Source: a virus
Length of the DNA stretch: 64,000 nucleotides
Reading direction: 5' to 3' (one strand)
IMG/VR virus record: IMGVR_UViG_3300044859_001080
Location: 1 to 64,000 of that record
Part shown: positions 16,629 to 44,087 of the stretch, piece by piece
Position numbering within the stretch: the first letter of the stretch is position 1
How the letters are laid out: every line of letters starts with the position of its first letter
Made by a program: the position numbers and the translations under genes
Notes under the pieces: generated by a model
Told to the model about the DNA's origin: nothing
Database searches by the model: none
Seen by the model: only the letters and a program-made list of their open reading frames with translations

Positions 16629-16629
16629 T

Positions 16630-17535
16630 ATGAGTGAATTTAACGTATATGCGCCAACACCTGGTAGTGGATGTTCAAGTTGGTTTAATCATGCAACTAG
16701 TGGTGATGCTTGTAATTCAATATTTTGCACAACAATACCAACAACTTGTGTGGGGGATTGTGATAAGTTATATGTGACAAACCAAAGAACTCCACAGAGA
16801 ATAGAGATTAATGATATTATTTACATTGGGACAGATACTGGTTATGAGATATTACCTGAAGGTTGGTATGTTAGCAGTACAAAGGGTACGGTATTCAATA
16901 TTAATTCAAGTGGTGTTTTGATAAGTGTCAATACTTGTTCTGGTACAACTTATGTTACAGATTTGGATGGGAATTATTATGGTACAGCTACCATTGGAAC
17001 ACAAACTTGGTTTACAGAAAATTTAAGAACAACAAGGTATAATAATGGTGCTGATATTCCAAATGTAACTAATAGTACAACTTGGAGTAATTTAACAATT
17101 GGTGCTTATTGTGCATATAATAATAATAATATTGATAATTGTTTTGGGTATTTGTATAATTTTTATGCAACAACTAATCTATGTCCAACCGAGTATAGAG
17201 TTCCCACATTGGCTGACTATGCAACTTTATCCACATATCTGGGGGGTAATAGTATTTCAGGTGGGAAGATGAAAACAGAAGGAGTTGTATGGTGGGATAG
17301 CCCAAATGATGGGGCAACAAATACTAGTGGATTTAGTGGTTATCCAGCAGGTAGAAGAGTGTATAATGGTAATTTTAATTTCTTTGGGGAAACGGGTACT
17401 TTTTGGACTAATACAACAACTGGATGTATTGTTAATTTTGCCAAAATAATTCAATTAAAATATAATAATAATAATTTGGATTTCCAATGTGATGATAAAA
17501 ACAATGGGTATTCGGTTAGATGTATAAAAAATTAA
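16630..17535 (+). CDS. FISUMP-domain virion protein
   Basis: This 301-residue protein starts 1 nt after the previous stop. Residues about 108-301 match the Fibrobacter succinogenes major paralogous domain (FISUMP): TDLDGNYYGTATIGTQTWF, then ENLRTTRYNNG, GYLYNFYA, YRVPTLADYATL, GYPAGRR and the closing YSVRCIKN. The domain is common in Bacteroidetes surface lipoproteins and is thought to have a carbohydrate-binding-like (C-type-lectin-like) fold. Its presence in a tail block supports a Bacteroidetes host and a role in surface binding. Residues 1-105 are cysteine-rich and unassigned. There is no signal peptide, consistent with a virion part. A second FISUMP gene lies at 46.1 kb. Confidence 0.8.
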   Translation: MSEFNVYAPTPGSGCSSWFNHATSGDACNSIFCTTIPTTCVGDCDKLYVTNQRTPQRIEINDIIYIGTDTGYEILPEGWYVSSTKGTVFNINSSGVLISVNTCSGTTYVTDLDGNYYGTATIGTQTWFTENLRTTRYNNGADIPNVTNSTTWSNLTIGAYCAYNNNNIDNCFGYLYNFYATTNLCPTEYRVPTLADYATLSTYLGGNSISGGKMKTEGVVWWDSPNDGATNTSGFSGYPAGRRVYNGNFNFFGETGTFWTNTTTGCIVNFAKIIQLKYNNNNLDFQCDDKNNGYSVRCIKN

Positions 17536-17539
17536 TATA

Positions 17540-18130
17540 ATGGCAACAGATTATAGTTTAAATATAAAATTTAATTTTTTACAAGGAATTGATATTACCA
17601 ATAATATAAATTGGAAGACAACGTATTTGACCCCAAATAATGGATATATTGAAAATGATGTAAGATTTAATACAAATAGTTTTAATAATTCATTTTTCAA
17701 ATTAGATTATTATGACACCCCTTTTAGTAAATCGCAAAAATTATATTTTACAACTATATTACAAGCCAGCAATGGAATTCAATCAAATAATTTAATAATT
17801 CCAGAGTATTATTTGGATCACGACATTAATACAGAGGGTTTTTATATTTATTGGTTAAGGGATAAGACAATATTTAATCTTGATACTTTTTATGTTAGTG
17901 CAACATTTTTCAATGGTAAAACTGGAATGGTTAAAAGAATGTCAAATATTTGCCAAGGGGATTCAAATTTGAGTGATAGATATAATTTAAATGAAGTTTT
18001 TGATTTTCATTATAAATTAAAATTGGATTATGATAATAAGACATATGAATATTTTGATATTAAAAAAGATAATAGGATTGGTATTTCTGGATCACCAATT
18101 TTATGGTATGAATATATAAGCAGAAAATGA
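17540..18130 (+). CDS. Putative structural protein
   Basis: This 196-residue, Asn/Tyr/Phe-rich, probably beta-strand protein has no recognised domain. It starts 4 nt after the FISUMP gene and its stop overlaps the next start (ATGA), so the three genes are translationally coupled. There is no signal peptide or membrane helix. Structural role is inferred from context only. Confidence 0.6.
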   Translation: MATDYSLNIKFNFLQGIDITNNINWKTTYLTPNNGYIENDVRFNTNSFNNSFFKLDYYDTPFSKSQKLYFTTILQASNGIQSNNLIIPEYYLDHDINTEGFYIYWLRDKTIFNLDTFYVSATFFNGKTGMVKRMSNICQGDSNLSDRYNLNEVFDFHYKLKLDYDNKTYEYFDIKKDNRIGISGSPILWYEYISRK

Positions 18131-27329: not shown

Positions 27330-29837
27330 ATGAGTTTTAATTATAAAAATCCTAAATCATCAGTTGTACTATCTGGGCCAAATTCAGTTAGGACAGATTC
27401 AAATACCGGAAGCAATTTTAGTTCATTCCAAGTTGGTGGTTTTTACGAGGTTTTTAAATTAAGTGATTTAAATTTTAACATACCAAGTGGTGCAACAGGG
27501 ACAATATTATATTCAGGAAATACCATTCCCATTGATTTTAGTTATAATGCACCAAACAATTTTCCAAATGTAGTCAATTTATATTCAGATGGGATTTCTT
27601 CTGGAAGGAGAAAACTTGGTATGATTGCTTATGTTTATGAGAATAATAAGACATATCAATACCAAATACCAAACTATGAAACATTATTTAATAATGCTAT
27701 AAATGTTGGTTCTGTTGTAAATATTGATTTTGGTTATCAGATATATGATAATACAGATGAAGGTAAATTATTGTTAAATGCTTGGACAGGGTCAACCATT
27801 GAAGGCATAAGTGGAGTAACAAGAGGGGATGCAAGATGGGTTGAGTTCAATCCAGAGATTTATATCACAGGTGGAACATATAGTTCAGGAGATACCACAT
27901 TATATTTATATGATAGTTCAGGGAATACAATACCAATATCAGGGTTTAGCATTAGTATTAGTGGGGGAACAACGGGGACATCTGGAACAAGTGGTACATC
28001 TGGTGGTTTAGCAGGAACATCTGGAACAAGTGGCTCATCTGGTGATCCATTAACTGAATTAGAAATAACAGGAGTTCAGAATAATTCTAATAGAACATTT
28101 ACAATATCTGAATCTGTTGATATAAGTAATCATTTATTTTTTTATAATGGGCAATTGCAACAATATGGTGTAGATTATACCATATTATCAGGCACAACTT
28201 TAGTAATTGATAATGCTAATCCGCCACCAACACCAAATTGTATATTAAAGATATATGGTAGTGTTGTTATTGGTTTTAATGGAACATCTGGAACATCTGG
28301 AACAAGTGGTTCAAGTGGTTCATCTGGAACAAGTGGTTCATCTGGTAATCCATTAACTGAATTAGAAATAACAGGAGTTCAGAATAATTCTAATAGAACA
28401 TTTACAATATCTGAATCTGTTGATATAGGTAATCATTTATTTTTTTATAATGGGCAATTGCAACAATATGATGTAGATTATACCATATTGTCAGGTACAA
28501 CTTTAGTAATCAATAATGCTAATCCACCACCAACACCAAATTGTATATTAAAGATATATGGTGGTGTTGTTATTGGTGTTAATGGTACATCAGGTACAAG
28601 TGGGAGTAATGGAACATCTGGAACAAGTGGTTCATCTGGCAGTTCAGGAACATCAGGCACAGAGGGAACAAGTGGTTCATCTGGAAGCAGCGGAACATCA
28701 GGTATAGATGGGACAAGTGGTTCATCTGGAAGCAGCGGAACATCAGGTATAGATGGAACATCAGGCACGTCAGGAACAAGTGGTACGTCAGGTAGTAGTG
28801 GGTTACAAGGTATAAGTGCAGGTCAAGTTTATTATTTCAATGAAAGCCAAAATTCAGATGTTAATGGGTATAAAGCCCTATCAATTACTCCACTTGACAC
28901 ACCACAACAAAGTGTTGTTATATTAGTTCCAGGTAATTCAACAGGGACATTAGTTTCAGATTATATAACGCCTGAATTAGGTTTTTCTGTAATACCAGGT
29001 GGGACACAAAAATTTCATTTACATTTCTTAAAAACAAATCAAAATGATTTGATGGATGTTTATGTTGAGATACAATTGGCTAATTTTAGTGGACAAACAA
29101 TTGGACCAATAATAACATCAAATGTTAGTCTTATAAATTGGTTAGATGGGTCAACACCAGTTGAGGCAAATGTTGATATAACTTTACCAACAACAACAAT
29201 CAATCCAACTAATAGGATGATTGTTAGAATATATCTTAATAATCAACAAGGTTCATCAAAAAATGTTACATATTATACAGAAGGGAATAGTAATTATTCA
29301 TTTGTTTTAACATCTACTGGTGCAATAGGAGGAACAAGTGGTATTTCAGGTTCTAGTGGCTCATCAGGGACAAGTGGTTCATCTGGGAGTAGCGGTACAT
29401 CTGGAACAAGTGGTTCATCTGGAACAAGTGTAGCACTTTATTTACTTGAAGCATATGCAGACGTTGTTTATACTTTACCAGGTAGTTTTACTAATGATAC
29501 TTGTAGATATAGTATTGTGAATAATAGTGTAAATGTATCAAGTGCATGGTTTAATACTTCAACTTATACCTTTACACCACTAAAAGCAGGTTATTGGGAA
29601 ATTGCGGCTAGTTATGATGTCTATAGAAATGGAGAAGCTAATATGGGAATACAAAAAAATGGCAGTACTATAGGAATAGCGGGTTCAATATCTTCAATAA
29701 TACAACAAGTAAGAAAAATTTTATATCTAAATGGCTCAACTGACTATGTAAATATTATTAATAATGGTTCTAATGCAAATGCAAGAACACAAGAAGTAAC
29801 TAGGTCTTGGTTTCAAGCAATATGGTTAGGAGAATAA
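27330..29837 (+). CDS. Collagen-like (GTSG) tail fibre with C1q-like head
   Basis: This 835-residue protein has a 210-residue N-terminal domain, then short GTSGTSGSSG shafts separating globular modules. A module with the core NRTFTISESVDI occurs twice, about 95% alike by eye, and a diverged copy is in the next fibre gene. A beta domain (about 490-665) and another GTSG shaft follow. The final 130 residues look like a C1q/TNF-type jelly roll (YTFTPLKAGYWEIAASY, IQKNGSTIG, ending SWFQAIWLGE). The architecture of shaft plus trimeric head fits a receptor-binding fibre. GTSG is not a true Gly-x-y collagen triplet, so the shaft fold is uncertain. Confidence 0.75.
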   Translation: MSFNYKNPKSSVVLSGPNSVRTDSNTGSNFSSFQVGGFYEVFKLSDLNFNIPSGATGTILYSGNTIPIDFSYNAPNNFPNVVNLYSDGISSGRRKLGMIAYVYENNKTYQYQIPNYETLFNNAINVGSVVNIDFGYQIYDNTDEGKLLLNAWTGSTIEGISGVTRGDARWVEFNPEIYITGGTYSSGDTTLYLYDSSGNTIPISGFSISISGGTTGTSGTSGTSGGLAGTSGTSGSSGDPLTELEITGVQNNSNRTFTISESVDISNHLFFYNGQLQQYGVDYTILSGTTLVIDNANPPPTPNCILKIYGSVVIGFNGTSGTSGTSGSSGSSGTSGSSGNPLTELEITGVQNNSNRTFTISESVDIGNHLFFYNGQLQQYDVDYTILSGTTLVINNANPPPTPNCILKIYGGVVIGVNGTSGTSGSNGTSGTSGSSGSSGTSGTEGTSGSSGSSGTSGIDGTSGSSGSSGTSGIDGTSGTSGTSGTSGSSGLQGISAGQVYYFNESQNSDVNGYKALSITPLDTPQQSVVILVPGNSTGTLVSDYITPELGFSVIPGGTQKFHLHFLKTNQNDLMDVYVEIQLANFSGQTIGPIITSNVSLINWLDGSTPVEANVDITLPTTTINPTNRMIVRIYLNNQQGSSKNVTYYTEGNSNYSFVLTSTGAIGGTSGISGSSGSSGTSGSSGSSGTSGTSGSSGTSVALYLLEAYADVVYTLPGSFTNDTCRYSIVNNSVNVSSAWFNTSTYTFTPLKAGYWEIAASYDVYRNGEANMGIQKNGSTIGIAGSISSIIQQVRKILYLNGSTDYVNIINNGSNANARTQEVTRSWFQAIWLGE
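28041..28586 (+). repeat. 303-bp direct duplication encoding a fibre module
   Basis: Two nearly identical copies, about 28041-28283 and 28344-28586, have a 303-bp period, so the frame is kept. They differ at only a few bases (for example GATATAAGT versus GATATAGGT). They encode the module with core NRTFTISESVDI. The low divergence indicates a recent in-frame duplication or gene conversion. Confidence 0.85.
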
Positions 29838-29978: not shown

Positions 29979-32900
29979 ATGCCAACTAGATTAAATATTT
30001 ATGGTCAGGCCATTTCAACAACGAAGAAAAGGCCGTGTATTGTTGCAACAACAGGTCATATAGTACTATCTGGAGCAACAACACCAACATCAATTGATGG
30101 GATTAATATTGATGTTAATGATAGAATACTGGTGTGGCAACAAAATTCGCCACAAAATAATGGAATATACAAATTAGAAACATCAGAATTATTAAGCCGT
30201 GATTATGATTTTAATATCAGTGACGATGTTTATACTGGTGTTGAGGTTTTGGTATTATCAGGATTAACATATTCTGGTAAAACATTTTATTTAACAACAA
30301 CAGATGAGATAACAATTGGAAGTAGTTTATTAACATTTGATATTCTTGCTGGTCAAAATGGAACAAGCGGAAGTTCAGGAACAAGTGGTTCATCAGGAAC
30401 AAGTGGCTCATCTGGAACAAGCGGAAGTTCAGGAACAAGTGGCTCATCTGGAACAAGTGGAAGTTCAGGAACAAGTGGCTCATCAGGAACAAGTGGAAGT
30501 TCAGGAACAAGTGGAAGTTCAGGAACAAGTGGTTCATCTGGAACAAGTGGCTCATCAGGAACAAGTGGAAGTTCAGGAACAAGTGGAAGTTCAGGTACAA
30601 GTGGTTCATCAGGTACAAGCGGAAGTTCAGGAACAAGTGGCTCATCAGGAACAAGTGGAAGTTCAGGAACAAGTGGAAGTTCAGGAACAAGTGGAAGTTC
30701 AGGTACAAGCGGAAGTTCAGGAACAAGTGGTTCATCAGGAACAAGTGGAAGTTCAGGAACAAGTGGAAGTTCAGGAACAAGTGGAAGTTCAGGAACAAGT
30801 GGTTCATCTGGAACAAGTGGAAGTTCAGGAACAAGTGGTTCATCAGGTACAAGCGGAAGTTCAGGAACAAGTGGTTCATCTGGAACAAGCGGTTCATCTG
30901 GAACAAGCGGAAGTTCAGGTACAAGTGGAAGTTCTGGAACAAGTGGAAGTTCAGGTACAAGCGGAAGTTCAGGAACAAGTGGTTCATCTGGAACAAGCGG
31001 TTCATCTGGAACAAGCGGAAGTTCAGGTACAAGTGGAAGTTCTGGAACAAGTGGAAGTTCAGGAACAAGTGGTTCATCAGGTACAAGTGGCTCATCTGGA
31101 ACAAGCGGTTCATCAGGTACAAGTGGTTCATCTGGAACAAGCGGAAGTTCAGGAACAAGTGGAAGTTCAGGAACAAGTGGAAGTTCAGGAACAAGTGGAA
31201 GTTCAGGAACAAGTGGAAGTTCAGGAACAAGTGGCTCATCAGGTACAAGTGGCTCATCAGGTACAAGTGGCTCATCTGGAACAAGCGGAAGTTCAGGAAC
31301 AAGTGGAAGTTCAGGAACAAGTGGAAGTTCAGGAACAAGTGGAAGTTCAGGAACAAGTGGCTCATCAGGTACAAGTGGCTCATCTGGAACAAGCGGAAGT
31401 TCAGGTACAAGTGGAAGTTCAGGAACAAGTGGAAGTTCAGGAACAAGTGGCTCATCAGGTACAAGCGGTTCATCAGGTACAAGCGGAAGTTCAGGAACAA
31501 GTGGCTCATCAGGAACAAGTGGCTCATCTGGAACAAGCGGAAGTTCAGGAACAAGCGGAAGTTCAGGTACAAGTGGAAGTTCAGGAACAAGTGGCTCATC
31601 TGGAACAAGTGGCTCATCTGGAACAAGCGGTTCATCAGGTACAAGTGGTTCATCTGGAACAAGCGGAAGTTCAGGAACAAGTGGTTCATCTGGAACAAGC
31701 GGAAGTTCAGGAACAAGTGGTTCATCTGGAACAAGCGGAAGTTCAGGAACAAGTGGTTCATCTGGAACAAGTGGTACTGATGGAACAAGTGGCTCATCTG
31801 GAACAAGTGGCTCATCTGGAACAAGTGGCTCATCTGGAACAAGCGGTTCATCAGGTACAAGCGGAAGTTCAGGAACAAGTGGTTCATCTGGAACAAGTGG
31901 TACTGATGGAACAAGTGGCTCATCTGGAACAAGTGGAAGTTCAGGAACAAGTGGCTCATCTGGAACAAGTGGCTCATCTGGAACAAGCGGTTCATCAGGT
32001 ACAAGTGGTTCATCTGGAACAAGCGGAAGTTCAGGAACAAGTGGTTCATCTGGAACAAGTGGTACTGATGGAACAAGTGGCTCATCTGGAACAAGTGGAA
32101 GTTCAGGAACAAGTGGCTCATCTGGAACAAGCGGAAGTTCAGGAACAAGTGGAAGTTCAGGAACAAGTGGTTCATCTGGAACAAGCGGAAGTTCAGGTAC
32201 AAGTGGAACAGCAGGAACAAGTGGAACAAGTCCATCAATAGTAGAATTATCTATTTCAGGTGCAACAAATGGGTCAAATAGAACATTTACCATTTCTCAA
32301 GAAATTGACCAAGAGGCTAGTTTATTCTTTGTTAATGGTCAATTACAACAATATGGTGATGATTATACCATTGCTGGAAATCAATTAACAATTGACTCAG
32401 AAAACCCAGCACCAACATCAACATACATATTAAAATTATTTGGCGGTGGTATTCTTTTTGGTATCAATGGAACAAGTGGAACATCAGCCTTTATTACCTC
32501 ATCAGCATCAACACCATCACCAATAGATGCAAATTCAATGTGTTTTTGGTTTGACACAGTAAATTTAGAGCCAATGGTTTCTTATTGTGGGTATAGTGGA
32601 GCAGCTTCATGGTCAGCAGGGGGTGCATTGATAACAGGAAACCAGCAATTTGCAGGAGCAGGAACACAGAATGAAGGACTTGTATTTGGAGGTACTGGTC
32701 CTGTATCTTGCACTGAAGAATATAATGGCACATCTTGGTCAACAGGTGGTGCATTAGCAACAGCAAGATGTGGTTTAGCAGGAGCAGGAACACAAAATGT
32801 AGGACTTGCTTTTGGTGGACATAGTTCATATGGTTCTTGCACAGAAGAATATAATGGTACATCTTGGTCAGCAGGAGGTGCATTAGCAACAGCAAGACGA

Positions 32901-33929
32901 TTTTTAGCAGGAGCAGGAACACAGAATGCAGCGCTTGCAGCAGGAGGTACTTATCCAATAACGTCTTGCACAGAAGAATACAATGGTACATCTTGGTCAG
33001 AAGGAGGTGCATTAGCAACAGCAAGATGTGGTTTAGCAGGAGCAGGATCACAGAATGCAGGACTTGCATTTGGAGGTAATGGTCCTTTATCTTGCACAGA
33101 AGAATATAATGGTACATCTTGGTCAGCAGGTGGTGTATTAATAGTTGCAAGAAGATTATTAGCAGGAGCAGGAACACAAAACGCAGGACTTGCATTTGGA
33201 GGAACTCCATCAGGATCTTGCACAGAAGAATACAATGGCACATTATGGTCAGCAGGAGGTGCACTGATAACAGGAAGACAAAATTTGGCTGGAGCAGGAA
33301 TACAGAATGCAGCGCTTGCAGCAGGAGGTGGTTATGGATCATTAACTTGCACCGAAGAATACTCAGCACCAATAGTTTTGATTGATAGTTCAGGTACAGG
33401 AACACCAGGTGCAAGTGGAAGTTCAGGAACAAGTGGTGCAGCAGGAAGTAGTGGCACATCAGGTGCATCTGGAACAAGTGGTTCGTCTGGAACAAGTGGT
33501 TCTAATGCTGGAATAACATCATATACAAACCCAGTTGATAATAGGGTATTAACCTCAGTATCATCAACGTCAATAAATGCTGAAGCCAACTTAACTTTTG
33601 ATGGTAGTGTTTTAACTGTTACAGGAACTATAACAGAAACATCAACAGAAAAAGTAAAAGAAAATATAGAAGAAATTAGTAATCCTTTAGAGATTGTGAA
33701 AAAATTAAGAGGAGTAGAATATAACAAAATAGGTAATTCTATAAAAGAAATTGGTTTAATTGCAGAGGAAGTAGATAAAGTGCTACCACAAGTGGTAATA
33801 AAAGATTATGAAGGTAAACCAGCATCTGTCTCATATTCAAGAATAACAGCAATATTAATTGAAGCAATAAAAATACAGAATAAACAAATTGAAAATTTAA
33901 CAAAAAGGATTGAAGTATTAGAAAAATAA
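29979..33929 (+). CDS. Giant tail fibre: adaptor, GTSGSS shaft, kelch-like propeller, S74 chaperone
   Basis: This protein has 1,316 residues. Residues 1-127 match the common fibre-attachment domain (VATTGHIVLSG, DRILVWQQ, NGIYKLETS). Residues about 128-751 are a near-perfect GTSGSS repeat. Residues about 755-835 are the NRTFTIS module shared with the previous fibre. Residues about 870-1131 are six kelch-type repeats (pattern R-x-x-LAGAGTQNAGLAFGG-x-CTEEYNGTSW), fitting a six-bladed beta-propeller. A short second GTSG shaft follows, then an S74 intramolecular chaperone (about 1222-1316). The S74 dyad is S1222 and K1227, five apart as in endosialidase, so self-cleavage before S1222 is expected. 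The C-terminal coiled coil would trimerise the fibre. It is probably the main host-recognition fibre. Confidence 0.85.
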   Translation: MPTRLNIYGQAISTTKKRPCIVATTGHIVLSGATTPTSIDGINIDVNDRILVWQQNSPQNNGIYKLETSELLSRDYDFNISDDVYTGVEVLVLSGLTYSGKTFYLTTTDEITIGSSLLTFDILAGQNGTSGSSGTSGSSGTSGSSGTSGSSGTSGSSGTSGSSGTSGSSGTSGSSGTSGSSGTSGSSGTSGSSGTSGSSGTSGSSGTSGSSGTSGSSGTSGSSGTSGSSGTSGSSGTSGSSGTSGSSGTSGSSGTSGSSGTSGSSGTSGSSGTSGSSGTSGSSGTSGSSGTSGSSGTSGSSGTSGSSGTSGSSGTSGSSGTSGSSGTSGSSGTSGSSGTSGSSGTSGSSGTSGSSGTSGSSGTSGSSGTSGSSGTSGSSGTSGSSGTSGSSGTSGSSGTSGSSGTSGSSGTSGSSGTSGSSGTSGSSGTSGSSGTSGSSGTSGSSGTSGSSGTSGSSGTSGSSGTSGSSGTSGSSGTSGSSGTSGSSGTSGSSGTSGSSGTSGSSGTSGSSGTSGSSGTSGSSGTSGSSGTSGSSGTSGSSGTSGSSGTSGSSGTSGSSGTSGSSGTSGSSGTSGSSGTSGSSGTSGSSGTSGSSGTSGTDGTSGSSGTSGSSGTSGSSGTSGSSGTSGSSGTSGSSGTSGTDGTSGSSGTSGSSGTSGSSGTSGSSGTSGSSGTSGSSGTSGSSGTSGSSGTSGTDGTSGSSGTSGSSGTSGSSGTSGSSGTSGSSGTSGSSGTSGSSGTSGTAGTSGTSPSIVELSISGATNGSNRTFTISQEIDQEASLFFVNGQLQQYGDDYTIAGNQLTIDSENPAPTSTYILKLFGGGILFGINGTSGTSAFITSSASTPSPIDANSMCFWFDTVNLEPMVSYCGYSGAASWSAGGALITGNQQFAGAGTQNEGLVFGGTGPVSCTEEYNGTSWSTGGALATARCGLAGAGTQNVGLAFGGHSSYGSCTEEYNGTSWSAGGALATARRFLAGAGTQNAALAAGGTYPITSCTEEYNGTSWSEGGALATARCGLAGAGSQNAGLAFGGNGPLSCTEEYNGTSWSAGGVLIVARRLLAGAGTQNAGLAFGGTPSGSCTEEYNGTLWSAGGALITGRQNLAGAGIQNAALAAGGGYGSLTCTEEYSAPIVLIDSSGTGTPGASGSSGTSGAAGSSGTSGASGTSGSSGTSGSNAGITSYTNPVDNRVLTSVSSTSINAEANLTFDGSVLTVTGTITETSTEKVKENIEEISNPLEIVKKLRGVEYNKIGNSIKEIGLIAEEVDKVLPQVVIKDYEGKPASVSYSRITAILIEAIKIQNKQIENLTKRIEVLEK
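30360..32232 (+). repeat. About 104 tandem 18-bp units encoding (GTSGSS)n
   Basis: About 1.87 kb of in-frame 18-bp repeats. The protein is almost invariant (only rare GTD or GTA units), while the third codon positions and the AGT/TCA serine choice vary, giving several unit types. Longer identical blocks recur with a 108-bp period (for example starting at 30846 and 30954), showing segmental duplication on top of the basic unit. It is coding, not a CRISPR array: there are no spacers. Confidence 0.95.
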
Positions 33930-34895: not shown

Positions 34896-35480
34896 ATGAC
34901 TAATTTTATTTACACAAAAAACAATGCACTATCAGGAAATGTTTGCCTTAATTTAATAAAGGCTTTTGAAGAATCTGATTTAAAACAACCAGGTGTTCTT
35001 TATGGCCCAGAGGGTATTTCATCTGATAGTGATAAGAAATCAACCGACATCACATTTGATCCCTCTTTTATGAATAAAGAACCTTGGTCTTTATTATTGG
35101 AGGATGTTATTGTTTCAGTTAAAACTGGTGTGTTAGATTATTTAAATAGGCATTCAACTGCAATGTCAAAAATGGATCCTATTGATTTATATACATATTT
35201 TAATATGCAAAAATATGAACCAAATGAAGGGTTTTTTGGTTGGCATTGTGAGAGAGCTGGTATAAAGCATTCTGACAGATTATTGGTTTGGATGGTTTAT
35301 TTAAATACTTTGACAGATAGAGGTGAAACTGAATTTTTTTATCAGCAACACTTTGAAAGACCAGAGAGAGGGAAACTTGTCATTTGGCCATCAGATTGGT
35401 CTCATTTGCATAGAGGTGTTCCATCACCTACTGAAACTAAATACATCCTAACTGGGTGGTTCACACATATAAAGAATTAA
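34896..35480 (+). CDS. 2-oxoglutarate/Fe(II)-dependent oxygenase (prolyl-hydroxylase-like)
   Basis: This 194-residue protein has the double-stranded beta-helix motif set: YFNMQKYEPNEGFFGWHCE gives H117-x-E119 (Glu replacing the usual Asp), and HLHRGVPSP gives the distal H172. K182 in ETKYILTGW is the likely 2-oxoglutarate anchor. The family hydroxylates protein side chains or small molecules using O2 and 2-oxoglutarate. It is first of three consecutive oxygenase genes in a tail-fibre region, so a virion protein is a plausible substrate (inference). The catalytic set appears complete. Confidence 0.8.
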   Translation: MTNFIYTKNNALSGNVCLNLIKAFEESDLKQPGVLYGPEGISSDSDKKSTDITFDPSFMNKEPWSLLLEDVIVSVKTGVLDYLNRHSTAMSKMDPIDLYTYFNMQKYEPNEGFFGWHCERAGIKHSDRLLVWMVYLNTLTDRGETEFFYQQHFERPERGKLVIWPSDWSHLHRGVPSPTETKYILTGWFTHIKN

Positions 35481-35483
35481 TTT

Positions 35484-36086
35484 ATGGATTTTTCTATACA
35501 TGAGGAGACATGGTTTTCCACACCTATATGGGAGGCAGAAGTTAAGAACATTGATAATAATGAAATAAAGGATTATTGTTTGTGGTTAAGGGATAACACA
35601 AAAGGTGCATTCATCTCAAATAGAGGTGGTTGGCATAGTAGTGAGATTGTTTTACCATTACCAAATGAATTAATGTCATTATTTAATAATCTTGAATTAT
35701 TTGCTAATGAACAATGCTACAAACATCTAGGTGTGGGAAACTTAAAATTGGGTAATTTTTGGGTTAACATAAACACCAATGGGTCATACAATCTTTTGCA
35801 TGACCATCAAAATAGTATATTATCTGGTGTATATTATGTTTCTGTTCCATATGATAATATGGGAGACTTGGTATTACATAGAGGTGATACAGCAGAATAT
35901 TTTTTGAAGTCAGATGTTGAGAGGGTTAGCACAAAGACAAATTCTTTTGTTGCAGTAAAGAAGCCCATTGAATCTTTATTTTACATTTTTCCTAGTTGGG
36001 TTAGACATCATGTTGAATCAAACTATTCAGATGGTGAGAGAATATCAATTGCATTTAATTTTATACAAGACAAGAAGAAAATATGA
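35484..36086 (+). CDS. 2OG-Fe(II) oxygenase family protein (TIGR02466-like)
   Basis: This 200-residue protein contains LLHDHQNSILSGVYYVSVP (H106, D107, H108), the family's first metal-binding strand, and IFPSWVRHHVESN with the distal His (H175/H176), followed by GERISIAFNF where R187 likely holds 2-oxoglutarate. It is paralogous to the following gene. It starts 3 nt after the first oxygenase and overlaps the next by ATGA. Substrate unknown. Confidence 0.8.
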   Translation: MDFSIHEETWFSTPIWEAEVKNIDNNEIKDYCLWLRDNTKGAFISNRGGWHSSEIVLPLPNELMSLFNNLELFANEQCYKHLGVGNLKLGNFWVNINTNGSYNLLHDHQNSILSGVYYVSVPYDNMGDLVLHRGDTAEYFLKSDVERVSTKTNSFVAVKKPIESLFYIFPSWVRHHVESNYSDGERISIAFNFIQDKKKI

Positions 36087-36721
36087 AAGCACAAGTATTT
36101 GCAATATTCCCAACACCTTTATATGTGGCAAATTATGAGGGTGATTTAAAAGAGGTTATTGAATATTTTGATAGGAATGAAATGCAAGACACCAAAGCAG
36201 GGTATGGTATGATTTCAAACAATAGTTATATATTGGATAATCCAATATGTGATGAGGTGAATAAGTTTTTTATGGAATCCTTTAAAGATTTTGCAACAAA
36301 TGTAATGAGATATAGATATGAGGATTTGCAATTTGCACAATCCTGGTTGACATATAAAGCACCAAAACAATTCCATAAAGCACATACCCATCCAAACACC
36401 TTATTGGCTGGTGTTTTTTATTATGATGCACAAGAGGATGATGCTGCCATTTGTTTTTCAAAAGATGTTAAATCATTTAATAGATCATACTTTGAGCCAT
36501 CATTACTAGATGATTATCAAAATCATTCATTCTCACAAGAGGAGATATATTATAAACCAAAGAAAAATGATTTTTTAATATTCCCCTCTTGGTTAACACA
36601 TGGTGTTCCACCAAACAATACAAATAGGGTGAGAAAAGCATTAGGTGTCAATGCTTTAACAAAAGGCACATTAGGTGATAAAGAAACCATTTCAGAAATT
36701 ATATTTGGAAGATACAAATGA
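36083..36721 (+). CDS. 2OG-Fe(II) oxygenase family protein (TIGR02466-like)
   Basis: This 212-residue paralogue of the previous gene has FHKAHTHPNTLLAGVFYYDA (H101-x-H103) as the first metal-binding strand, LIFPSWLTHGVPPNN with H173 as the distal ligand, and R182/R184 as candidate 2-oxoglutarate contacts. Its start overlaps the previous stop (ATGA), and its stop overlaps the sulfotransferase start the same way, so the four enzymes form one tightly coupled operon. Families of this kind are frequent in marine myophages, with substrates unknown. Confidence 0.8.
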   Translation: MKAQVFAIFPTPLYVANYEGDLKEVIEYFDRNEMQDTKAGYGMISNNSYILDNPICDEVNKFFMESFKDFATNVMRYRYEDLQFAQSWLTYKAPKQFHKAHTHPNTLLAGVFYYDAQEDDAAICFSKDVKSFNRSYFEPSLLDDYQNHSFSQEEIYYKPKKNDFLIFPSWLTHGVPPNNTNRVRKALGVNALTKGTLGDKETISEIIFGRYK

Positions 36722-37536
36722 AACAAAAGATATTTTTTAATTCAACGTTACCAAGGAGTGGTAGCACTTTATTACAAAACATAATGGGACAAAATCCTGA
36801 ATTTCATGTAACACCAACATCAGGTCTAATTGATTTGATGTTAGGAGCAAGAATAGGATACAATCAAAACCATGAATCAAAGGCTGGTGATACAGAAATG
36901 TGGAAAGAGGGTTTCTATAATTTCTGTAAAGAAGGTATAAAAGCATATGTTTCATCACAAACATCAAAACCATATTATTTGGATAAGAATAGGGTATGGG
37001 CGTTTTATTATAACCTATTATCAAATGTGGTAGAAAATCCAAAAGTAATATATATGGTTAGGGATTTACCATCCATATTTGCATCAATGGAGAAGAAGTT
37101 TAGAATGAATCCTGATAAAGATGATGGCACAATGGATAATATCAAAATGAAAGGGACAACAACACATAAGAGAGTTGAACTATGGGCGCAAACAGTTCCT
37201 GTAGGTTATTCATTGGAAAAATTACAACAAACATTATTGGATGGTACAGCAAAGAACTTTCTATTCATTAAATATGAAGACCTATGCAGTAATCCAGAAA
37301 TGGTGATGAGAAACATTTATAAATATTTAGAAGTAGATGATTTCAAACATAATTTTCAACATATAAGTCAAGTCACAGTAGAAAATGATGCAATACATGG
37401 GATATATGGTGATCATATTATAAGGAATAGTTTGAATATGTTACCAAATGATTCAAAAAATGTGCTAGGTCAATATACAGTTGATTCCATAAAGACATCC
37501 TATAAGTGGTACAATGATTTCTTTGGGTATAAATAA
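36718..37536 (+). CDS. Sulfotransferase (PAPS-dependent)
   Basis: This 272-residue protein has an N-terminal PAPS 5'-phosphosulfate loop, LPRSGSTLLQNIMGQNP (about residues 10-26), and a 3'-phosphate site VIYMVRDLPSIFASM (about 104-118), which define the sulfotransferase fold. It transfers sulfate from PAPS to a hydroxyl or amine, commonly on a sugar or tyrosine. It is last in the oxygenase operon (ATGA overlap) and just before the propeller genes. A fibre glycan or host surface glycan is a plausible acceptor (inference). No signal peptide, so it acts in the cytoplasm. Confidence 0.85.
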   Translation: MKQKIFFNSTLPRSGSTLLQNIMGQNPEFHVTPTSGLIDLMLGARIGYNQNHESKAGDTEMWKEGFYNFCKEGIKAYVSSQTSKPYYLDKNRVWAFYYNLLSNVVENPKVIYMVRDLPSIFASMEKKFRMNPDKDDGTMDNIKMKGTTTHKRVELWAQTVPVGYSLEKLQQTLLDGTAKNFLFIKYEDLCSNPEMVMRNIYKYLEVDDFKHNFQHISQVTVENDAIHGIYGDHIIRNSLNMLPNDSKNVLGQYTVDSIKTSYKWYNDFFGYK

Positions 37537-37570: not shown

Positions 37571-38521
37571 ATGGCAAAATTACAAAGTACAGAAATAATA
37601 GGAGTTGCAAATAGACCTGCAACAATATGTTCAAATACGATGTGCATTTGGTTTGATACAGTTAATTTAAAACCAGTCATTTCATATTGTGGATATAGTC
37701 CTCCTTGGTCAGTAGGTGGCGCAATGATAACAGCAAGATGTGGTTTAGCAGGAGCAGGAACGCAAGATGCAGGTCTTGTGTTTGGAGGCTTTGCTAGTTT
37801 TTCTCCAAAATCTTGTACAGAAGAATACGATGGTGCATCTTGGTCAGCAGGTGGTGCATTATCAATAGCAAGACTTGGTTTAGCAGGAGCAGGAACACAG
37901 AATGAAGGACTTGCTTTTGGGGGAGGCGCTAGTTATTCTCCAATATCTTGTACAGAAGAATATAATGGCACATCGTGGTCATCAGGCGGTGCATTGATAG
38001 AAGCAAGGAGTTCTTTAGCAGGAGTAGGAACACAAAATGCAGGACTTGCATTAGGAGGTTATGCTAGTTATTCTCCATCATCTTGCACAGAAGAATATGA
38101 TGGTACAACTTGGGCAACAGGAGGTGCATTGATAGAAGCAAGGAGTTCTTTAGCAGGAGCAGGAACACAGAATGCAGGACTTGCTTTTGGAGGAACTCCA
38201 TCAGGATCTTGCACAGAAGAATACAATGGTACATCTTGGTCAGCAGGAGGTGCGTTGATAACAGCAAAATGTGGCTTAGCAGGAGCAGGAACACAGAATG
38301 CAGGACTTGCTTTTGGTGGTAACTCTTTTGCTGTGCCTGATACACAAGAATATAACGGCAGTTCTTGGGTGGCAGGCGGCAAATTATTATCAGTGAGATG
38401 TTCTTTAGCAGGAGCAGGGACGCAAAGTGCAGGACTTGCTATGGGTGGGTATAATGGTTCATGTGTTTCTTGTACAGAAGAATACATTAAAACAATCGCA
38501 ATAATAGATTCAATACGATAA
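37571..38521 (+). CDS. Kelch-like six-repeat propeller protein, copy 1
   Basis: This 316-residue protein has an N-terminal 45-residue cap (MAKLQSTEIIGVANRPA, then CIWFDTVNLKPVISYCGYS) followed by six repeats of about 43 residues. Each repeat reads ITAR-x-x-LAGAGTQNAGLAFGG, a variable 4-10 residue loop, then SCTEEYNGTSW-S-x-GGAL. The Arg, GG doublet, Tyr and Trp spacing matches kelch repeats, and six repeats fit a closed six-bladed propeller. It closely resembles the propeller of the giant fibre at 32.6-33.4 kb, including the cap, but lacks shaft and chaperone. It may be a separate adhesin or an exchangeable fibre head. Confidence 0.75.
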   Translation: MAKLQSTEIIGVANRPATICSNTMCIWFDTVNLKPVISYCGYSPPWSVGGAMITARCGLAGAGTQDAGLVFGGFASFSPKSCTEEYDGASWSAGGALSIARLGLAGAGTQNEGLAFGGGASYSPISCTEEYNGTSWSSGGALIEARSSLAGVGTQNAGLALGGYASYSPSSCTEEYDGTTWATGGALIEARSSLAGAGTQNAGLAFGGTPSGSCTEEYNGTSWSAGGALITAKCGLAGAGTQNAGLAFGGNSFAVPDTQEYNGSSWVAGGKLLSVRCSLAGAGTQSAGLAMGGYNGSCVSCTEEYIKTIAIIDSIR

Positions 38522-38522
38522 T

Positions 38523-39470
38523 ATGGCAAAATTACAAAGTACAGAAATAATAGGAGTTGCAAATAGACCAGCAGTAATATGCGCTGATACTGTATGTTTA
38601 TGGTTTAATACAACAATTAAACAGTTAGTTTTCTCATATTCCGGTTTTTCAGGATCCTGGTCGGCAGGGAATGCATTGATAACAGCAAGAGGTTATTTAG
38701 CAGGAGCAGGGACGCAGAATGCAGGACTTGCTATAGGCGGGTATAATGGTAGTATTCTTTCTTGCACGGAAGAATACGATGGTACATCATGGTCAGCAGG
38801 CGGAGCATTATCAATAGCAAGATATCGGTTAGGAGGAGCAGGGACACAGAGTGTAGGACTTGTGTTTGGAGGCCGTAATCCGGGCGCTCTTTCTTGTACA
38901 GAAGAATACGATGGGACATCTTGGTTAGCAGGCGGAGCATTGATAATAGCGAGGTTTGGACCAGCAAGTGCAGGTACACAGGACGCAGGACTTGCATTTG
39001 GAGGTTTTGTAAATAATAGTAGTACCTGCACTGAAGAGTACAATGGTACATCTTGGTCAACAGGTGGCGCATTGATTAGTTCAAGACATAATTTAGCAGG
39101 AGCAGGAACACAGAATGCAGGACTTGCTTTTGGGGGAACATTTCCAAATGGTGATTGCACTGAAGAATACAACGGCACAACTTGGTTAACAGGTGGTGCA
39201 TTGATAATAGGAAGAGAAGGTACAGGGACAGGAACACAGAATGAAGGACTTTTTATAGGAGGCATAGTAACAAATACTGGTGTTTCTTGTACAGAAGAAT
39301 ATGATGGCGCATCTTGGTCAGTAGGTGGGGCAATGATAGTAGCAAGGCACACACTAGCAGGTGCAGGAACACAAAGCGCAGGACTTGCTATAGGTGGGTA
39401 TATGAATAATGGAGTTTCTTGTACAGAAGAGTACACTAAAACAATAACAATAGTAGATTCAATACGATAA
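38523..39470 (+). CDS. Kelch-like six-repeat propeller protein, copy 2
   Basis: This 315-residue paralogue begins one base after copy 1 (TAA-T-ATG). Its first 50 bases are almost identical to copies 1 and 3, then the cap diverges (CLWFNTTIKQLVFSYSGFS). It has six repeats with the same Arg/GG/Tyr/Trp frame. Repeat 5 is degenerate (REGTGTGTQNEGLFIGG, with the LAGAG stretch shortened), and repeat 3 has GPASAGTQ. Loops between FGG and CTEEY differ from copies 1 and 3, while the framework is conserved, the pattern expected if the loops form the binding face. Confidence 0.75.
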   Translation: MAKLQSTEIIGVANRPAVICADTVCLWFNTTIKQLVFSYSGFSGSWSAGNALITARGYLAGAGTQNAGLAIGGYNGSILSCTEEYDGTSWSAGGALSIARYRLGGAGTQSVGLVFGGRNPGALSCTEEYDGTSWLAGGALIIARFGPASAGTQDAGLAFGGFVNNSSTCTEEYNGTSWSTGGALISSRHNLAGAGTQNAGLAFGGTFPNGDCTEEYNGTTWLTGGALIIGREGTGTGTQNEGLFIGGIVTNTGVSCTEEYDGASWSVGGAMIVARHTLAGAGTQSAGLAIGGYMNNGVSCTEEYTKTITIVDSIR

Positions 39471-39471
39471 T

Positions 39472-40416
39472 ATGGCAAAATTACAAAGTACAGAAATAAT
39501 AGGAGTTGCAAATAGACCAGCAGTAATATGCACTGATACTGTATGTTTATGGTTTGATACAACAAATTTGAAATCAATGGCATCATATTGCACTTTTTTA
39601 GGATCCTGGTCTGCAGGAGGTGCATTGATAACAGCAAGACTTGGTTTAGCAGGAGCAGGAACACAGAATGAAGGACTTGCTTTTGGAGGATATTGTAATG
39701 AAGGTTTATCATGTACAGAAGAATATAATGGCACAAGTTGGTCAGCAGGGGGTGCATTAATAACAGCAAGACATTTTTTAGCAGGAGCAGGAACAGAAAA
39801 CGCAGGACTTGCTTTTGGTGGTAGTTATTCAGGTTCATGTACCGAAGAATATAATGGTACGGCTTGGTCAGCAGGGGGTGCATTGATAGAAGCAAGGAGT
39901 TCTTTAGCAGGAGTAGGAACACAGAATGCAGGACTTGCTATGGGGGGCGGTGGTTATTCTCCAATATCTTGTACAGAAGAATATGATGGTATATCGTGGT
40001 CATCAGGCGGTGCATTGATAGAAGCAAGGAGTTCTTTAGCAGGAGTAGGAACACAAAATGCAGGACTTGCATTAGGAGGTGGTGGTTATGGACCAACATC
40101 TTATACAGAAGAATACAATGGCACAACTTGGACAACAGGAGGTGCATTGATAGAAGGAAGGGGTTCTTTAGCAGGAGCAGGCTCACAGAATGCAGGACTT
40201 GCTTTTGGTGGTGCTGCTAGTTATTCTCCAAAATCTTGTACAGAAGAATATAATGGCACATCTTGGTCATCACGCGGAGCATTATTAATAGCAAGGTGTT
40301 CTTTAGCAGGAGCAGGAACACAAAGCGTAGGGCTTGCTTTTGGAGGAACTCCATCAGGATCTTGTACAGAAGAATATGATGGAGATATTTTAATAATAAG
40401 AGACATTATTTTATAA
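39472..40416 (+). CDS. Kelch-like six-repeat propeller protein, copy 3
   Basis: This 314-residue paralogue begins one base after copy 2. The N-terminus is MAKLQSTEIIGVANRPAVI, then CLWFDTTNLKSMASYCTFL. Six repeats follow; repeats 3-5 share ALIEARSSLAGVGTQNAG with copy 1, indicating gene conversion between the copies. One repeat has SYTEEY instead of SCTEEY. The end differs from copies 1 and 2: EEYDGDILIIRDIIL rather than EEYxKTIxIxDSIR. A terminal 71-nt gap follows. Confidence 0.75.
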   Translation: MAKLQSTEIIGVANRPAVICTDTVCLWFDTTNLKSMASYCTFLGSWSAGGALITARLGLAGAGTQNEGLAFGGYCNEGLSCTEEYNGTSWSAGGALITARHFLAGAGTENAGLAFGGSYSGSCTEEYNGTAWSAGGALIEARSSLAGVGTQNAGLAMGGGGYSPISCTEEYDGISWSSGGALIEARSSLAGVGTQNAGLALGGGGYGPTSYTEEYNGTTWTTGGALIEGRGSLAGAGSQNAGLAFGGAASYSPKSCTEEYNGTSWSSRGALLIARCSLAGAGTQSVGLAFGGTPSGSCTEEYDGDILIIRDIIL

Positions 40417-40487: not shown

Positions 40488-41375
40488 ATGGATTTAACAA
40501 CAGAAAAAATTTTAGTATGGCACATTCAAGGTGGATTAGGAAAGAATGTTGCAGCTACATCATTACCAAAGACAATAAAAGAAATTTATCCAGATAGACA
40601 ACTTATAATGGTTGTATCATATCCTGAAGTTTTTCTAAATAATCCTTATGTTGATAGGGTGTATCCATTAGGTAATTGCCCCTACTTTTACCAGGATTTT
40701 GTAGAGAACAAGGATACTCTTGTTTTTAGACATGAGCCGTATCATCAAACGGGTCATATACATAAGGAGAAGCATCTGGTAAGTAACTGGTGTGATTTGC
40801 TTAATATAGAGTATAGCAATCAGATACCCCAACTTTTCCCAAATTACGCAGAGAAGGTTAATGCAAAGAAATGGTTTAGGGATAAACCAGTGGTGGTATT
40901 ACAAACATCTGGTGGTGATTTAGAATCAAAGAATATATATTCTTGGTGTAGGGATATGCCACAAGATATTGCACAATTGATTGTTGACAAGTACAAGGAC
41001 AGCCACCATATATTCCATATAACAAGGAAAGGTGGTTATGTTTTGAATGATACAGAGAGGCTTGATGTTAAGTTATCTAATATGGAGTTGTTTAGTATAT
41101 TGACAGTTTCGTCCAAGAGATTTTTAATAGATTCTTCTTTGCAACATGCGGCAGTTGCTATTAATTTGCGGTCAACTGTGTTTTGGATTGGAACATCACC
41201 CAAGGTTTTTGGGTATGACTTGCACAATAATATTGTTGCAAATCAGCCCAAAAACAAGAACCAATTAATTGGTTCATACTTGTTTGACTATCAGTTTGAT
41301 TTTAATGTACATGAGTGTCCGTATAGCACATTGGATGAAATGTTTGATATGGATTTTGTTATATCAAATATTTAA
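40488..41375 (+). CDS. GT9/heptosyltransferase-like glycosyltransferase
   Basis: This protein has 295 residues from ATG 40488; an upstream in-frame TTG at 40449 is less likely. The N-terminus, ILVWHIQGGLGKNVAATSLP, followed by YPDRQLIMVVSYPEVFLNNPYVDRVY, is the GT-B Rossmann start of the ADP-heptose transferase (GT9) type. The C-terminal half contains FLIDSSLQHAAVAINLRS and VFWIGTSPKVFGY, corresponding to the nucleotide-sugar binding end with the conserved HAA. It is convergent with the TibC-like gene and overlaps its 3' end by 12 bp. Likely donor is a heptose or related sugar; acceptor unknown. A strong terminator lies 21 nt after its stop. Confidence 0.7.
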   Translation: MDLTTEKILVWHIQGGLGKNVAATSLPKTIKEIYPDRQLIMVVSYPEVFLNNPYVDRVYPLGNCPYFYQDFVENKDTLVFRHEPYHQTGHIHKEKHLVSNWCDLLNIEYSNQIPQLFPNYAEKVNAKKWFRDKPVVVLQTSGGDLESKNIYSWCRDMPQDIAQLIVDKYKDSHHIFHITRKGGYVLNDTERLDVKLSNMELFSILTVSSKRFLIDSSLQHAAVAINLRSTVFWIGTSPKVFGYDLHNNIVANQPKNKNQLIGSYLFDYQFDFNVHECPYSTLDEMFDMDFVISNI

Positions 41376-44087
41376 ATTTGTATGCTGTTTCAAATTAAGT
41401 ATAACATCTTCGGGTGTTATACTTTTTTGGCATTCGTGTTGTCTGGATGTTCCTTTATGTATTGGGCACCAGTTCCAATCTCCTTTATCAAATTTGAAGT
41501 TTGGGTTTGTCCAACAAGAGTTGCATACATTATGATTATATATTCTTGTTGTATTTGTTGTGAATTCATGATTTAAATCAGTGAAATTGTTAATCATAAC
41601 CACATGTTTATTAATTGCCCAACTTAACCAACTCAAGCCACTTCCCAGACCAATGAATATTTCAGAATGGTGAATATAATTCATAATGTTATTTATGTCA
41701 TAATTGTTTGGAGTTATGGCATTTTTGATATTATTTCCTTCTTTTGAAATGTTTATAACGGTATATCCTTTGCTATTTAAAAATTCTGTTAGTTCATCCC
41801 ATCCATTTGGGTATAGCCAGAATTTTAAGGCTGATGTGGAGTGGGTTGCAATTGTTATGTATTTTTCTTTTATGGGTCTTTTCTTTGGTATGAAATCAAT
41901 GGTTGGTTTTATTTCGGTATAATCTAGGCCAAGGATATTTGTTGCTGTCATTTGTAATGGTATTATATTTGGTAATATTGGTTCCATTTGATTATTATAG
42001 AACCAACCAAGGGTATATTTTGCATGTATATTTTGGGCAACTTGACCAGGTATAATGAACTCAATGTTTGGATATGTTTTTTCAAAGAAGTTATTCCAGA
42101 AGGTTGATGCAACAACCTTGCAATTATGTTTTTTTGAGAATTCATCAATGTAAGGCATCCATGCAACGGAATCACCAAGAGATTTTGAATCAATGGCAAT
42201 ATAAACCCTTTTATTGGTTAAATCCATATTAAAGACATGTTTCCCTTTTTGGTTGCTAACAGTGATTTCCCAATCAACAAAATATTTTATGGATGATTTT
42301 GTCCAATTGTTTCTCCCAATATTTGATTTGTATTCAATTTTGTTTGTTTTTTTATTTTTGAATGTAATATCATATCTTATGTTTGGACCACCAGTTATTT
42401 CAACAAATGGACCATCAATAAAATTAATATTAATATTTGGTTCAATATCAGTTGTTTTTAATTCATATATGTCAAAACTTGAAAATTGGTTATGAACACC
42501 TTCCAAGTCTGTTGTTACTTTATCAGTTAAGCATTTTTCAACAACATTAAACTTATAATCTTTGATTAAATCATACATTTTTTCCTCAAACTTCTTGAAG
42601 TTGATATAAAATATTAATTTTGTTTTGTAATAGTTAAATAACTCCAATAATGGGGTTATGTTGCCAGAAAAGAAATTGGTTTTATATCCATCATTTTTAT
42701 CTATGTTATTATTGTAATATAAAATTAAATCCTTTGAATTAAGCTGTTTATAATTATCATTTAATGTGTCAGAATATATTAATGTATCATAATTTACAAT
42801 ATGTATTTTCTTTTTGTTTAATTTATCTGCAAAGTTGACACCCTGCTTTATTAAGTTATAAACTCCAAAACTATGTTCAAAAGGCATTGAAGTACTTGTT
42901 TTTTCCCCTTTTGCATTTATCTTCCAATATTCAAATATAACATTATGTTCTTCATATTCATCTTTATCCAATAATTGATTATCTTTTGAATATAATACAT
43001 AATCACATAATGATTGGGTTTCTTCATCAACTGGTTTATTGCATGATAATATGATTTCTGTATTGATGGTTGACAAACATCTTTTTAGCATATTTTTTCT
43101 AAATAAGTTATTTGTGTGAGCCAATACAATGGTTACTTCATCTTCATTTCTTTTTTTATCTTCATTCAATAGATTGATTAATAATTTCTTATTCTCTTCT
43201 GGGTTATCTGTGGAATATACTGCCTTATTATCATAATAATTTTCATATGTATGTAAGTTTTTTGTTATAATTTTAAGACCAAAGGATGATGCTTCTTTTA
43301 ATGATAAGGGATTCAATTCATATATTGATGGGAAATAGAATAAATCAGACGCTTCATAATAATTCAATGGGTTTTCTTGTTCCCCGTGTATAACGCAATT
43401 CTTTGGTAAATCATCCAATATTGGTTTCCAATATTCATAGAAGTTTCCAGCCATATTTCCAACAAAATGAAATATTATTTTCTCATCTTGGCACAATCTA
43501 GCGACTTCAATTATTTCCTTTTGGTTTTTACCTTGTGTAAATAATCCAACATGTAGGACATGTTTATAAGAGGGGTCAAATCCAAGGAGTTCTTGTTTTT
43601 GCTTTTTCTTTGGTATTTTCTTTGGAATGTGGTATTCCCATATGGTTAATGGAACTCCTGTTTTTACAAATTGCTTCTTGCTCCATTCTGATACTAAGAT
43701 ATATTTATCTGGATGAAATTTTATATCATTTGGATTTGTCCATGATCCATGTGTGGTGACAAATATCTTATAACCTTGGTCACGTTGAAATATCTTGAAA
43801 AGGATATCATCTGACAAATTGAATTCAGGTACTTCTTGAAAATGAATAATGTCAGGACTAATGTTATTTATGTGTGTTAATATTTCAGATTTATCATCCC
43901 CAAGTGTAATAACATTTACAAGTTCTTTAATCTTATTCTTTTGTACAACATAATCACCGCTTACATTTGCTATTTCAATGACATAAATATTATATACAGG
44001 AAGAAATTCTTCAATTTGTTTGAGAAGATATTGCGGTAAACCCCCAGTTGATAAATGCGGTGTTACAAATAATAATTTTTCTTTCAT
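41364..44087 (-). CDS. Three-domain glycosyltransferase with TibC-like autotransporter O-heptosyltransferase domain
   Basis: This protein has 907 residues. Residues 1-315 form a GT-B/GT4 domain (TPHLSTGGLPQYL at the start; E257-x7-E265 motif in YELNPLSLKE). Residues about 316-525 resemble a second, GT-A-like domain (TIVLAHTNNLFRK, then DYVLYSKDNQLL). Residues about 565-907 match the bacterial autotransporter heptosyltransferase (BAHT) family: WEITVSNQKGKHVF, then SLGDSVAWMPYIDEF, GLGSGLSWLSWA at 813-824 and GDWNWCP near 869. The four cysteines C855, C858, C874 and C886 form the metal finger seen in TibC. BAHTs add heptose to Ser of strand-loop-strand autotransporter repeats. Here the likely acceptor is the phage's own Ser-rich fibre (inference). 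Transcribed against its neighbours; the 139-nt upstream gap shows no clear promoter on this strand. Confidence 0.88.
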   Translation of the reverse strand: MKEKLLFVTPHLSTGGLPQYLLKQIEEFLPVYNIYVIEIANVSGDYVVQKNKIKELVNVITLGDDKSEILTHINNISPDIIHFQEVPEFNLSDDILFKIFQRDQGYKIFVTTHGSWTNPNDIKFHPDKYILVSEWSKKQFVKTGVPLTIWEYHIPKKIPKKKQKQELLGFDPSYKHVLHVGLFTQGKNQKEIIEVARLCQDEKIIFHFVGNMAGNFYEYWKPILDDLPKNCVIHGEQENPLNYYEASDLFYFPSIYELNPLSLKEASSFGLKIITKNLHTYENYYDNKAVYSTDNPEENKKLLINLLNEDKKRNEDEVTIVLAHTNNLFRKNMLKRCLSTINTEIILSCNKPVDEETQSLCDYVLYSKDNQLLDKDEYEEHNVIFEYWKINAKGEKTSTSMPFEHSFGVYNLIKQGVNFADKLNKKKIHIVNYDTLIYSDTLNDNYKQLNSKDLILYYNNNIDKNDGYKTNFFSGNITPLLELFNYYKTKLIFYINFKKFEEKMYDLIKDYKFNVVEKCLTDKVTTDLEGVHNQFSSFDIYELKTTDIEPNININFIDGPFVEITGGPNIRYDITFKNKKTNKIEYKSNIGRNNWTKSSIKYFVDWEITVSNQKGKHVFNMDLTNKRVYIAIDSKSLGDSVAWMPYIDEFSKKHNCKVVASTFWNNFFEKTYPNIEFIIPGQVAQNIHAKYTLGWFYNNQMEPILPNIIPLQMTATNILGLDYTEIKPTIDFIPKKRPIKEKYITIATHSTSALKFWLYPNGWDELTEFLNSKGYTVINISKEGNNIKNAITPNNYDINNIMNYIHHSEIFIGLGSGLSWLSWAINKHVVMINNFTDLNHEFTTNTTRIYNHNVCNSCWTNPNFKFDKGDWNWCPIHKGTSRQHECQKSITPEDVILNLKQHTNLNI
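41397..41428 (+). terminator. UUCG-tetraloop intrinsic terminator
   Basis: A 12-bp stem (AAGTATAACATC at 41397-41408 with GGTGTTATACTT at 41413-41424, one G-U pair) is closed by a C(UUCG)G tetraloop and followed by T residues to 41428. On the plus strand it ends the GT9-like gene. It lies inside the 3' end of the minus-strand glycosyltransferase coding sequence. On the minus strand no T-run follows, so it should act in one direction only. Confidence 0.88.

Follow-up and report, generated by a model that had tools for sequence, protein, structure and literature searches.

What would a bacterial virus modify with an enzyme built like TibC, a protein heptosyltransferase of bacteria, and with which sugar would it do so? 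The question is raised by a 907-residue glycosyltransferase encoded in the first 64 kb (hereafter the window) of the 85,297-bp IMG/VR virus record IMGVR_UViG_3300044859_001080, where a first-pass annotation, made from the sequence alone, had proposed a phage-encoded TibC-type O-heptosyltransferase fused to two other glycosyltransferase domains. The open reading frame (ORF) exists as described and starts with ATG; it lies on the minus strand amid plus-strand genes, and it converges on a plus-strand gene for a GT9-like protein, which it overlaps by 12 bp (Table 1). The record is assigned to a tailed phage, since the window encodes DnaB helicase, ribonucleotide reductase and baseplate-wedge genes and its baseplate proteins have distant relatives in Flavobacterium and Microcystis phages. 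The identical 907-aa protein is present in seven further IMG/VR contigs and is therefore no assembly accident; taken together with the phage genes of the window, this also makes bacterial contamination or misassembly an unlikely source of the gene.

The C-terminal domain is clearly related to TibC. In a profile search against NCBIfam, residues 547-900 matched TIGR04414 (hepto_Aah_TibC) with 283 bits (E 2.6e-84; curated cut-off 200), and a phmmer comparison with TibC itself (4rap/4rb4) gave an E-value of about 1e-45. For the structural comparison an alignment-based AlphaFold model of the whole protein was used (mean pLDDT 82, mostly >90 in both end domains), a single-sequence model of the domain having reached a pLDDT of 34. 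TibC chains were the top 21 Foldseek matches of this model in the PDB (best TM 0.84, rmsd 2.4 Å, 30% identity) and were followed by GT4 enzymes. The assignment to the BAHT/TibC family, which had been made from the motifs GLGSGLSWLSWA and GDWNWCP (both present), is thus borne out by profile and by fold, the likeness extending to the N-terminal β-strand region.

In TibC, Asp-110 is the catalytic base, the donor is bound by Thr-226, Lys-230, Trp-305 and Arg-286, and Cys-339/342/358/370 hold iron (PMC4358343). The first, second, third and fourth of these residues correspond to D639, T751, K755 and W820 of the 907-aa protein. The four cysteines noticed earlier (855, 858, 874 and 886) are indeed present, and all four of them, not only the three originally credited, share the spacing of the TibC iron finger (+3, +16 and +12 in both proteins). 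The equivalents of Asp110, Thr226, Lys230 and Trp305 and the four cysteines are invariant in 46/46 non-redundant viral relatives, and the cysteines are likewise kept in 82/82 bacterial relatives; the domain accordingly possesses a complete set of iron-finger ligands and is predicted to bind metal. Position 300 is Gly in the window protein, Pro in TibC and Ser in AAH. A search of the window proteins against PHROGs returned no family for the TibC-like domain.

Two features presented as conserved in BAHTs are nevertheless missing. The β-hairpin thumb of TibC makes the active dodecamer, and Arg-286 contacts adenine, its replacement in R286A abolishing or largely diminishing activity (PMC4358343). 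In the window protein the thumb segment comprises 15 residues instead of 25, and the position of Arg-286 is occupied by Ile-801. Both differences extend to the other viral sequences, which were gathered with patterns taken from the window protein, a sampling that limits how the counts are to be read: the thumb segment is shortened in 45 of the 46 viral relatives and full-length in 79 of the 82 bacterial ones, and Arg-286 is substituted in all 46 (by Thr in 41) and retained in 79 of the 82. In a tree with bacterial relatives, the viral sequences form one clade (support 0.94), whose sole member from a bacterial bin (L085) adjoins a GTSGSS fibre gene and looks viral. Since thumb and Arg-286 are lost in the viruses and kept in the bacteria, and since the viral sequences form a clade of their own, the viral TibC-like proteins are a thumb-less sister branch that retains the fold and core of TibC, rather than canonical BAHTs. 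What stands of the 'TibC-type O-heptosyltransferase' is thus a virus-encoded TibC fold with an intact catalytic core, a full iron-finger set and a GT4 fusion. The strict sense of the name is not supported, as the window protein and almost all of its viral relatives lack both thumb and Arg-286, and the autotransporter acceptor repeat TIGR04415 (strand-loop-strand) had no match at E up to 10 in the 85-kb record, which may be incomplete.

Some relatives depart from this pattern. In L275 and L085 the thumb segment is of intermediate length (about 21 residues in L085, similar in L275) and the Arg-286 position holds Leu; the segment of Microcystis phage Mel-JY01 (L292) resembles theirs, as judged by eye, and the three are perhaps a transitional form. 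In L062 (11133-12020) and L064 (968-1855) a second, shorter TibC-like paralogue of 295 aa adjoins the main one, with a thumb region that is full length yet unlike the bacterial thumb. Finally, a stand-alone thumb-less gene (L084, 9953-11158) lies about 5 kb from a GSSGSS-repeat ORF (3402-4856) on a 137-kb contig that looks chromosomal and comes from a Schekmanbacteria metagenome-assembled genome (a bacterial bin); this gene may be what corresponds to the viral branch in cells.

The two upstream domains fared differently. The N-terminal one is a GT4 domain, as had been proposed: residues 165-314 match PF00534 (E 3e-13), PF13692 is matched as well, the E-x7-E motif occupies residues 257-265, and the Foldseek matches include BshA, HepE and PimB'. 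The second 'GT-A-like domain' was not confirmed. The middle domain (about residues 317-545) matches no Pfam family in the window protein and has no significant sequence match in the PDB, and it is modelled with low confidence (low pLDDT); an Asp and a Glu that do not vary among 17 viral sequences are compatible with a GT-A site without proving one, which leaves a GT-A-like domain possible.

Relatives are encoded by at least 172 IMG/VR stretches, as fused GT4-BAHT proteins, as stand-alone BAHT domains or as proteins of 1000-1600 aa with extra domains. The isolated Microcystis phage Mel-JY01 encodes a 1227-aa relative (WWT39291.1) that shares the middle domain and carries no annotation beyond FkbM methyltransferase; its gene is flanked by GTSGSS collagen-like genes on both sides. 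UniProt entry A0A6J5SVC1 is already named 'Glycosyltransferase Aah/TibC [uncultured Caudovirales phage]', and A0A7S9XE01 belongs to Virus NIOZ-UU157; all three proteins have a related architecture and are known by annotation only. The earlier statement that no phage system had been described is therefore too strong as regards databases, although a search of the open-access literature found no paper on the function of any phage BAHT-like enzyme.

As to the role of the enzyme, we favour, with about even confidence, self-glycosylation of the collagen-like fibres with ADP-heptose as the predicted donor. The 907-aa protein would be the central glycosyltransferase in a set of phage enzymes that modify fibres, and during infection its C-terminal domain would attach heptose to Ser/Thr in the long GTSGSS collagen-like tail fibres of the phage itself. 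This heptose would most likely come from ADP-heptose, host-made here and partly phage-made in some relatives; the GT4 and middle domains may extend the glycan, the neighbouring sulfotransferase, GT9-like and 2-oxoglutarate (2OG)-oxygenase enzymes may further modify fibre or glycan, and the glycan could serve adsorption, stability or shielding. Because the β-hairpin thumb is missing, the enzyme would be expected to be active as a dimer or some similarly small oligomer, with no TibC-like ring. A bolder version, which we consider rather doubtful, is a near-complete phage O-heptosylation system that builds sulfated heptose glycans on collagen-like fibres and is widespread in environmental phages; its parts would be ADP-heptose synthesis, the thumb-less TibC-like transferase with extending glycosyltransferases, and APS kinase with sulfotransferase. 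Donor and acceptor are separate questions, so that the probabilities given to the various readings do not sum to one.

The argument for ADP-heptose comes from related viruses. The BAHT-like gene of L075 faces, in convergent orientation, an operon of GT9-like, sulfotransferase, FkbM, APS-kinase-like, cupin, HAD and Hld-like genes, the last being HldE-adenylyltransferase-like, HldE-kinase-like and HldD-like. L263, L264, L265, L266 and L267 repeat most of this operon beside the BAHT-like gene. In these six distinct contigs the BAHT-like gene thus adjoins an operon of sulfotransferase, cupin, HAD, HldE-II-like, HldE-I-like and HldD-like genes, mostly together with GT9-like and APS-kinase-like genes (no APS-kinase-like gene was detected in the L266 operon, and L263 is a short contig that does not reach as far as the GT9-like gene). 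The best NCBIfam matches of the L075 Hld-like proteins are to ADP-heptose families, all below the curated cut-offs (bits/cut-off: HldE kinase 138/345, HldE adenylyltransferase 92/181.5, HldD 168/274.6). Of this operon, the window retains only a sulfotransferase homologue and a GT9-like one, so that the link to ADP-heptose, direct in one subgroup, is extrapolated to the window. A complete ADP-heptose pathway as a general companion was rejected, gmhA and SIS_2 being absent from all 42 related records; the donor is therefore not made entirely by the phages from sedoheptulose-7-phosphate with known enzymes. TIGR02199 is matched in 12 of the 42 records, not all of which were counted as HldE (that of L167 has no adjoining kinase). 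Among viral loci L268-L291, many have HldD/HldE-like operons with no BAHT-like gene within 10 kb.

A tentative alternative is that the loss of Arg-286 changed the nucleotide specificity, making the enzyme a protein glycosyltransferase for another sugar. The uniform replacement of this residue in the viral branch, the effect of R286A on TibC (PMC4358343) and the 38 of 42 viral records with no HldE-kinase-like gene all point that way, but the residues that contact phosphate and heptose (Thr226, Lys230 and Trp305) are invariant, and in L075 and L263-L267 it is precisely the thumb-less version that sits beside Hld-like genes.

The argument for the fibres as acceptor is one of neighbourhood. A GTSGSS collagen-like gene lies near the BAHT-like gene in 10/13 records examined, at a mean distance of 2.6 kb, compared with 32 kb at random placement (0/2000 draws). 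Of the 25 non-redundant loci that have a GTSGSS gene, 24 have the nearest such gene downstream of the BAHT-like gene and in convergent orientation, with touching stop codons in some. This arrangement supports an enzyme-substrate pair without proving it, because the fibre region is home to both kinds of gene; it also lends some support to the earlier suggestion that the phage may glycosylate its own proteins. Mimivirus, with its collagen glucosyltransferase (PMC9546862), is a partial precedent for a virus that has genes for collagen-like proteins as well as for glycosyltransferases, and the 2OG oxygenases of the window recall the collagen-modifying enzymes of that virus. We regard this as an analogy only: in mimivirus the enzymes and sugar are others and hydroxylysine is modified, as opposed to the presumed Ser/Thr here, and the window belongs to a bacterial virus.

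Several points weigh against heptosylation of the collagen-like fibres. Donor, acceptor, enzyme activity and glycan are all predicted from sequence. The replacement of Arg-286, by Ile-801 here and mostly by Thr in the viral relatives, means that the donor may be something other than ADP-heptose; homology to the L075 hld-like genes identified no such gene in the window's record, gmhA occurs in none and an HldE-kinase-like gene in just 4 of the 42 related records, and 22 of 30 viral HldD loci have no BAHT-like gene within 10 kb. On the acceptor side, 20 of 45 non-redundant loci (several of them truncated) show no GTSGSS gene, and the nearest one in the window is 7 kb from the 907-aa gene. Fibre genes and the BAHT-like gene share the tail-fibre region, and their proximity may reflect that region rather than a substrate.

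If so, the enzyme might instead remodel the host surface (lipopolysaccharide (LPS)/O-chain) during infection, for instance to block superinfection, and owe its position to a hypervariable host-recognition region. Aquatic pelagimyophages carry glycosyltransferase and rfaE genes beside their tail fibres, for which O-chain modification was proposed; their main family is GT8, and the available part of that report mentions no BAHT domain (PMC7029224). GT9-like and ADP-heptose genes are LPS-type functions, and FkbM and sugar-modifying genes cluster with the TibC-like family. We nonetheless consider this reading unlikely on balance, as the nearest non-viral kin of the C-terminal domain, TibC and AAH, modify protein (TIGR02193, for LPS heptosyltransferases, scored 20 bits against 283), and the iron finger, the part of TibC that touches its protein substrate, does not vary. 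If a protein is the target, it could also be a host protein or a virion protein other than the GTSGSS fibres (capsid, tail tube, kelch-like or other fibres). Some loci lacking GTSGSS genes do carry other long fibres, such as a GGG/NTASG-repeat protein in L060; three repeat proteins lie between the sulfotransferase and the 907-aa gene in the window; and glycans on phage virion proteins are known from mycobacteriophages, where the targets are capsid and tail-tube subunits (Freeman et al. 2023, as cited in PMC12619734). The repeated convergent adjacency to GTSGSS genes makes such a target quite improbable in our view. Least probable by far is glycosylation of phage DNA. Many phages have glycosyltransferases that modify DNA (see references in PMC12619734), and 5 of 24 BAHT-carrying records have a thymidylate-synthase-family gene, with one annotated in Mel-JY01; the window's record and 18 of the 23 others have none, the nearest solved fold is that of a protein-modifying enzyme, and the gene lies beside fibre genes.

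Table 1. Features of the fibre region and of the 907-aa protein (window positions)
Feature	Position	Strand	Basis
Collagen-like fibre protein 1, 835 aa, GTSGSS blocks, candidate acceptor	27330..29837	+	sequence, motif count
Collagen-like fibre protein 2, 1316 aa, long GTSGSS repeat, candidate acceptor	29979..33929	+	sequence, motif count
Three 2OG-Fe(II) oxygenases in a row	34896..36721	+	PF13640, PF13759; phrog_61, phrog_81
Sulfotransferase	36718..37536	+	PF13469 E 4e-19; homologous to L075-operon sulfotransferase, E 4e-83
GT9-like protein, 308 aa	40449..41375	+	homologous to L075-operon GT9-like gene, E 3e-69
Multi-domain glycosyltransferase (GT4 + middle domain + TibC/BAHT-like domain), 907 aa	41364..44087	-	ATG start
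TibC/BAHT-like catalytic domain, residues 546-907	41364..42452	-	TIGR04414, TibC 4rap/4rb4 phmmer, Foldseek
Predicted iron-finger-like module, Cys-855/858/874/886	41430..41525	-	spacing identical to TibC Cys-339/342/358/370
Asp-639, counterpart of TibC catalytic base Asp-110	42171..42173	-	alignment; role from PMC4358343
Middle domain, residues about 310-548	42444..43160	-	perhaps GT-A-like, unproven
N-terminal GT4 domain, residues about 1-320	43124..44087	-	PF00534, PF13692; Foldseek; E-x7-E

Within the window, the 2OG-Fe(II) oxygenase trio sits between the collagen-like fibre and sulfotransferase genes, and 2OG-oxygenase-like genes were seen by eye to adjoin BAHT-like genes in L038, L053 and L059. 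The label 'GT9-like' rests on the look of the sequence, which has no NCBIfam or significant Pfam match. The GTSGSS repeat of the second fibre gene gives rise to long spurious ORFs (30217-32238 on the minus strand, 30337-32241 on the plus strand and 30353-32293 on the minus strand). The repeat proteins downstream of the sulfotransferase (37571-40416) are three tandem paralogues of about 315 aa with kelch-like WSAGGAL..GAGTQNAGLAFGG repeats, the first of which matches phrog_27227 (unknown function). Elsewhere, L082 encodes about seven tandem paralogues of TSLPEGL leucine-rich repeat proteins (14180-17815; record 78179-81815).

Should glycosylation of the collagen-like fibres prove correct, many environmental phages would chemically build part of their own host-binding surface, reusing on collagen-like fibres the protein-heptosylation chemistry of bacterial adhesins, and the crowding of glycosyltransferases, sulfotransferases and 2OG oxygenases around the fibre genes of these phages would be easier to understand. 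Since a whole branch lacks both thumb and Arg-286, it offers a natural test of the role of these two features in TibC. The isolated phage Mel-JY01, with its related gene between two collagen-like genes, makes the idea of fibre glycosylation testable.

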